DNA from: Anaspis maculata
Lineage: Eukaryota; Arthropoda; Insecta; Coleoptera; Scraptiidae
DNA: 64,000 bases
NCBI GenBank assembly: GCA_949128115.1
Contig: OX421967.1
Coordinates: forward strand, 8,670,070 to 8,734,069
Reading direction: 5' to 3'
Below the pieces are notes generated by a model. The model searched no databases, had not been told where the DNA came from, and was given only the letters and a program-made list of their open reading frames with translations. A program made the translations under genes and the position numbers. Shown piece by piece: positions 32,784-33,215 of this stretch (position 1 is the first letter of the stretch; the number at the start of each line of letters is the position of its first letter).

Positions 32784-33215
32784 CGAATCAAAATTTTGAA
32801 TGGAAACCTTTTTGACGCCCCCGAACATTTCTCCCTTGCTCACTGTATTTCTCAAGACCTTATAATGAACAAAGGGATCGCAGTTCAGTTTCGAACAAGA
32901 TTTAATTATATATCGACTCTAACAAAACAACGTGAAGAAGTTGGAGAGGTCGCCTGCTTGAAATTCCCTTCTAGATACGTTTATTATATGATCACGAAGT
33001 CTAGTTACCATGACAAGCCTACCTACGAAAATCTGCAAGAATCACTCACCTATTTAAAAGATCTCTGTTTACGACATAATGTTAAAGATCTTGCTATGCC
33101 AAAAATTTCTTGTGGGCTTGATGGCCTAAAATGGGAAAGAATATCCCAAATGATCGAAACCACCTTTCGGAACACTCCCGTCAATATACGTATTTATATT
33201 CTTAACGAAACCGAG
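32784..33215 (+). other. TARG1/OARD1-like macro domain embedded in pol
   Basis: The roughly 143-residue segment follows the TARG1 (OARD1/C6orf130) pattern end to end. It has a GNLFD start, SLAHCISQD, a KGIAVQF loop, GEVACLKF, RYVYYMITK, KPTYENLQESL, a DLAMPKISCGLDGLKW loop, and a terminal IRIYIL strand. In human TARG1 the catalytic pair is Lys84 and Asp125. The equivalent positions here are Lys812 (codon 32997-32999) and Asp853 (33120-33122) of pol, both present. The Asp usual in the first GD motif is Asn here (N748). Known family members bind ADP-ribose and hydrolyse ADP-ribosyl esters or O-acetyl-ADP-ribose. Activity here is inference. It lies between RNase H and integrase with no stop or frame change, so it is translated as part of pol. 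Confidence 0.9.

Follow-up and report, generated by a model that had tools for sequence, protein, structure and literature searches.

A decayed errantivirus-type element in the beetle Anaspis maculata carries, within a long open pol frame, a macro domain of the TARG1 type, an assignment supported by sequence, profile and predicted fold, with both catalytic residues kept. The element lies in a 64,000-nucleotide stretch of contig OX421967.1, hereafter referred to as the window. Apparently new here is a cell enzyme domain within an errantivirus-type pol, at several positions; macro-domain open reading frames are already known from other retroelements.

The element and its macro domain

The features of the element are listed in Table 1. 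Pfam matches place reverse transcriptase, RNase H and integrase in pol in the order found in errantiviruses (Metaviridae with env), and a baculovirus F-like env lies downstream of pol, as expected of an errantivirus. The start of pol appears retropepsin-like through a DTGA motif recognized by eye, and gave no Pfam match to a protease family. The gag region was assigned by position, because no Pfam gag family matched its first piece. As described in the first-pass annotation, both gag and the end of pol are broken: the gag-position frame is interrupted by a stop, and pol terminates where, in the protein alignment, the pol of its full-length relative P0002 continues for another 103 residues. A repeat search of the window found no direct repeats on either side of the element that could represent paired long terminal repeats. 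We call the copy decayed because of the gag-position stop, the shortened pol tail and the failure to find an LTR pair, and the first two of these led us to reject an intact, active provirus. Since the copy is decayed, an intact macro frame in this copy alone is little evidence.

Table 1. Features of the errantivirus-type element, in window coordinates.
Feature	Position	Strand	Basis or remark
gag-position region, one frame in two pieces (29331-29804, 29820-30167) with a stop between	29331..30167	+	ORF list
pol frame	30564..34646	+	open for 1360 codons
pol order: retropepsin-like start, RT, RNase H, macro, linker, pre-integrase domain, integrase	30564..34646	+	
RVT_1 reverse transcriptase (pol 314-476)	31503..31991	+	Pfam E 2.6e-39
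RNase H (pol 546-668)	32199..32567	+	Pfam RT_RNaseH and RT_RNaseH_2
TARG1/OARD1-type macro domain (pol residues 736-887)	32769..33224	+	profile match
Codon of Lys812, equivalent to TARG1 Lys84	32997..32999	+	conserved Lys column
Codon of Asp853, equivalent to TARG1 Asp125	33120..33122	+	conserved Asp column
Linker rich in acidic residues and proline (PEPDDPL), 8.5 copies of a 21-bp unit	33313..33491	+	TRF, 96% matches; find_repeats
Pre-integrase domain (about pol 997-1093)	33552..33842	+	macro-like topology minus two helices
Integrase H2C2 zinc domain (pol 1099-1155)	33858..34028	+	Pfam E 4.8e-17
Integrase core rve (pol 1171-1262)	34074..34349	+	Pfam E 3.6e-12
env frame, baculovirus F-like, 599 aa	34897..36696	+	Pfam Baculo_F PF12259 E 4.4e-35

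Several other features accompany the element. A LINE-like reverse transcriptase frame (27657-28937, minus strand; Pfam RVT_1, E 1.1e-15) lies antisense shortly upstream of the gag position, at a site where the 5' LTR was perhaps lost. Diverged repeat copies (26677-27094 and 38428-38834; 78-83% identity) flank the element on both sides, about 11.7 kb apart. The plus strand at 62388-63573 holds another Gypsy-type RT/RNase H remnant, which is more distantly related, with 26-31% identity to the RT piece of the window. Within pol, the PEPDDPL minisatellite runs in frame between the macro and pre-integrase domains and is possibly a length-variable spacer.

The first-pass annotation had placed a complete macro domain in frame between RNase H and integrase, at 32784..33215. 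The pol frame is unbroken across the domain, which is recognized both by Pfam Macro PF01661 (cut-off 22 bits; 26.6 bits for pol as a whole, 30.4 bits for the piece 32640-33290) and by an OARD1-type profile built from 118 standalone proteins with pol rows excluded; only the extent needed adjustment, the profile limits being slightly wider. The standalone profile matched the pol frame with E 1e-57, the best match in five base-shuffled windows having E 0.058. The proposed TARG1/OARD1 subfamily was likewise recovered when the same piece was compared with PDB chains by phmmer: the top five distinct sequences were all TARG1/C6orf130/OARD1 (E 2.4e-42 to 9.5e-42), and the next match after these entries was the DarG structure 5m31 (E 2.5e-8). 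Structure prediction, suggested earlier as a check, returned a TARG1-like macro; the predicted fold is nearest TARG1, at 46-51% identity in structure-based alignments. An alphavirus-type viral source of the domain was rejected on the fold comparison and on sequence, the alphavirus polyprotein 4gua reaching E 0.55 against 2.4e-42 for TARG1.

The TARG1 catalytic dyad is Lys84-Asp125 (PMC9411070). The two pol residues named as its counterparts, Lys812 and Asp853, fall in conserved columns, with the numbering unchanged. Each dyad residue occurs in 26/27 element domains (those of 25 pols and of the fragments P0131 and P0137), and both are present in all 118 standalone proteins, a set that includes unnamed proteins from short contigs that could be element pieces. 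In the median alignment column, by comparison, the commonest residue is shared by 44% of rows only. The P0103 macro has lost both catalytic residues.

Recurrence and position in other pols

When the macro region of the window was used as protein query, one full-length relative was identified, P0002, with 60% identity over the region and 51% over the whole pol. In a second protein search, for which the query was the P0002 region holding a macro domain, 1111 matches were obtained, of which 120 were listed. Iterated profile analysis detected a macro domain in 25 of the 121 pols formed by the window and these 120 listed matches, a proportion that overstates its frequency because the query itself held the domain and the sample is biased to carriers. 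The same sample again gave 25 pols with a profile lacking pol rows. Named carriers among the matches listed come from the beetles Harmonia axyridis (P0005) and Rhynchophorus ferrugineus (P0016) and, from a third beetle, include Lampyris noctiluca errantivirus 1 (P0028). Scans of viral contigs with the window macro or the window RT piece yielded nothing useful. With an alignment of element-derived macro domains, 80 IMG/VR contigs (L001-L080) were found to encode matching macro domains at 30-41% identity.

In most of the 25 pols (23) the macro domain is placed between RNase H and integrase; in P0020 it precedes the reverse transcriptase, and in P0013 it follows rve. Two fragments add to this range. 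In P0137 the macro is located behind matches to PF24626 (SH3_Tf2-1) and PF22938, the latter presumably an integrase C-terminal family. The P0131 macro groups with that of P0020 (99/84), and the P0131 tail bears a weak resemblance (best E 0.03) to stretches around residues 104-156 in other pols, which we took for the protease-RT linker. The interval between RNase H and the zinc domain has a median of 175 residues (146-269) in 96 macro-less pols and of 287 residues (276-633) in the 20 pols where an additional macro occupies it. In P0102, P0112 and P0114 the macro directly borders the zinc domain and the pre-integrase domain was undetected; the latter is present in nearly all sampled pols.

Relative to linker motif patterns made for this analysis, which match 18, 53 and 86 of the 96 macro-less pols, the window macro follows SLIAN, that of P0002 precedes FEYMEDFN and that of P0003 lies between both motif kinds. 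The recurrence that the first-pass annotation had set as a check was found, in 24 other pols, but not with the same junctions, the P0002 and P0003 macros being elsewhere in the linker. A single capture at one junction does not describe these data, as macro position and element lineage both vary. The occurrence of the domain at three different places in pol suggests that delivery with pol may outweigh exact position.

Evolutionary history of the module

Relatives were compared as protein sequences. The window pol is closer to the macro-less P0106 (protease 63%, RT 79%, RNase H 83%, pre-integrase 63%, zinc 76% and integrase core 76% identity) than to the macro-bearing P0002 (34, 72, 79, 36, 47 and 53%, respectively). 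The 60% identity of the window and P0002 macros exceeds that of their protease, pre-integrase, zinc and integrase core domains and falls below that of RT and RNase H.

A quick tree of the core pol was inferred from 33 of the 121 rows, chosen by hand and including 12 of the 25 macro rows; it leaves out P0102, P0112, P0113, P0114 and nine of the 12 divergent-clade rows, and P0005 forms a long branch. The window groups with the macro-less P0106 and P0116 (SH-aLRT 100), and P0002 with the macro-less P0004, P0006, P0010 and P0012 (99). A core pol clade of the window and P0002 was rejected (AU p 1e-4), as was one clade of the 12 macro rows (AU p 4e-55), both p values being post hoc because the tests on the 33-row tree were run after the 121-pol tree had been seen. 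On the 121-pol tree the distribution of the macro is patchy and involves at least nine changes of macro label, four of them forced by starred branches, with gain and loss indistinguishable.

The macro tree comprised 68 rows, including 42 of 120 standalone proteins, among which P0131, perhaps an element fragment, was labelled standalone. In this tree the macros of the window and of P0002 form a sister pair (100/98). Because these macros are sisters while the corresponding core pol clade is rejected, the module has been gained, exchanged or lost several times. One clade for the 27 element macros was not rejected (AU p 0.546), the constrained tree scoring slightly better, so that repeated capture is not distinguishable from exchange between elements.

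One history compatible with these trees, which we put forward tentatively, is a single entry of the module followed by its spread among lineages through recombination, rather than several captures from hosts. The retention of one clade for the element domains and the sister relationship of the window and P0002 macros despite the rejected clade of their core pols both argue in its favor. Against it stand the insertion points, which differ with respect to the conserved linker motifs and include sites before RT and after integrase, and the five label changes of the unconstrained macro tree (two forced by starred branches, with P0131 labelled standalone), although the one-clade AU test removes most of the weight of the latter.

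Proposed function and known systems

The reading we favor, and consider reasonably probable on sequence and predicted fold, is that the macro is a captured ADP-ribosyl hydrolase, carried with RT and integrase, that would remove host-added mono-ADP-ribose from element proteins or nucleic acid ends. The domain would be catalytically active and, packaged as part of Gag-Pol, would be delivered alongside RT and integrase. Its putative substrates would be ADP-ribose attached to Asp or Glu, or that on the ends of DNA or RNA. Taking such ADP-ribose off element proteins, cDNA ends or RNA ends while the element is being reverse transcribed and integrated might shield either process from host ADP-ribosyl transferases. 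Insects have few PARPs, so that the opposing host enzyme is not obvious. TARG1 itself is reported to release ADP-ribose from acidic residues, from thymidine in DNA and from phosphate ends of nucleic acids (PMC9411070).

A different role is conceivable for the domain, as an ADP-ribose reader tethering the pre-integration complex to ADP-ribosylated chromatin or to nucleic acid near damage, with catalysis incidental. Some macro domains are binders only, and a position between RNase H and integrase, seen in 23 of 25 pols, would suit such a tether; a pure reader, however, would have no need of catalytic residues that are each kept in 26 of 27 domains, and the P0020 macro is located before RT, which makes this role unlikely in our judgment. 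Far less credible is the view that a piece of host sequence came by chance to lie in a single decayed copy, or that the assembly is chimeric here, the domain having no function for the element. The decay of the window copy is what this explanation has to offer, whereas the frame is continuous on either side of the domain, the remaining pol pieces share 63-83% identity with P0106, and 24 other pols contain a macro, with the catalytic residues kept; a one-off insertion or chimera was rejected on that recurrence.

If the macro is indeed a hydrolase, a TARG1-type eraser in 25 of 121 pols (a biased sample, with 120 listed of 1111 matches) would point to ADP-ribosylation acting against insect retroelements, and a single domain, about 150 residues long and with its dyad known, provides a testable handle. 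It is well established that viral polyproteins can contain macro domains, and in RNA viruses these are markers of an ADP-ribosylation arms race. Alphavirus macro domains, which resemble the window domain in being a macro fold within a viral polyprotein, have a counter-ADP-ribosylation role. The nearest sequence relative is TARG1/OARD1/C6orf130 of human and other animals, which shares the fold, the Lys-Asp dyad and 46-51% identity but is a free-standing cell protein, commonly of about 150 aa, whereas the window domain lies inside pol with an acidic repeat linker. DarG is more distant, its macro having 20-24% identity to that of the window and, according to PMC9411070, lacking the dyad Asp.

Among retroelements, fish epsilon-like endogenous retroviruses contain macro-domain ORFs (Basta et al., 2009, as cited in the review PMC4977317). 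They share with the window element the combination of retroelement and macro domain, but by the description in that text these are additional ORFs in retroviruses of ray-finned fish, whereas the window macro is inside an errantivirus-type pol. Lampyris noctiluca errantivirus 1 is closer in organization, since its errantivirus pol has a TARG1-type macro that immediately follows RNase H, although this macro belongs to a divergent macro clade. It is a published virus (PMC7093385) whose LTRs and three ORFs were described by RNA sequencing; RT/RNase H and integrase are reported there for its pol, and the word "macro" is absent from the main text. Titles and abstract beginnings in the open-licence literature yielded no description of an errantivirus or Gypsy-type pol that contains a macro domain (the best 15 of 210 in one listing) and no paper on ADP-ribosylation against insect retroelements. 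An article on crocodile ERVs (PMC4299795) makes no mention of macro, and one on insect ERVs (PMC12992720) none of macro domain, ADP-ribos or OARD1; PMC11642819 and PMC8195603 are on other systems.

The predicted topology of the pre-integrase domain suggests that it is possibly a decayed macro domain, which would offer a possible origin for it. A broader and rather doubtful extension would have errantiviruses in long conflict with host ADP-ribosylation defence, with repeated uptake of TARG1-type domains and the pre-integrase domain as the fossil of an earlier capture, minus the ADP-ribose-binding helices and now a structural part of integrase. Were this so, the window element would contain an older, decayed macro domain beside a younger, active one. 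In P0113, a full macro at residues 752-902 is accompanied by a second, half macro at 1266-1358 that has no clear GLD motif and sits immediately in front of the integrase zinc domain.
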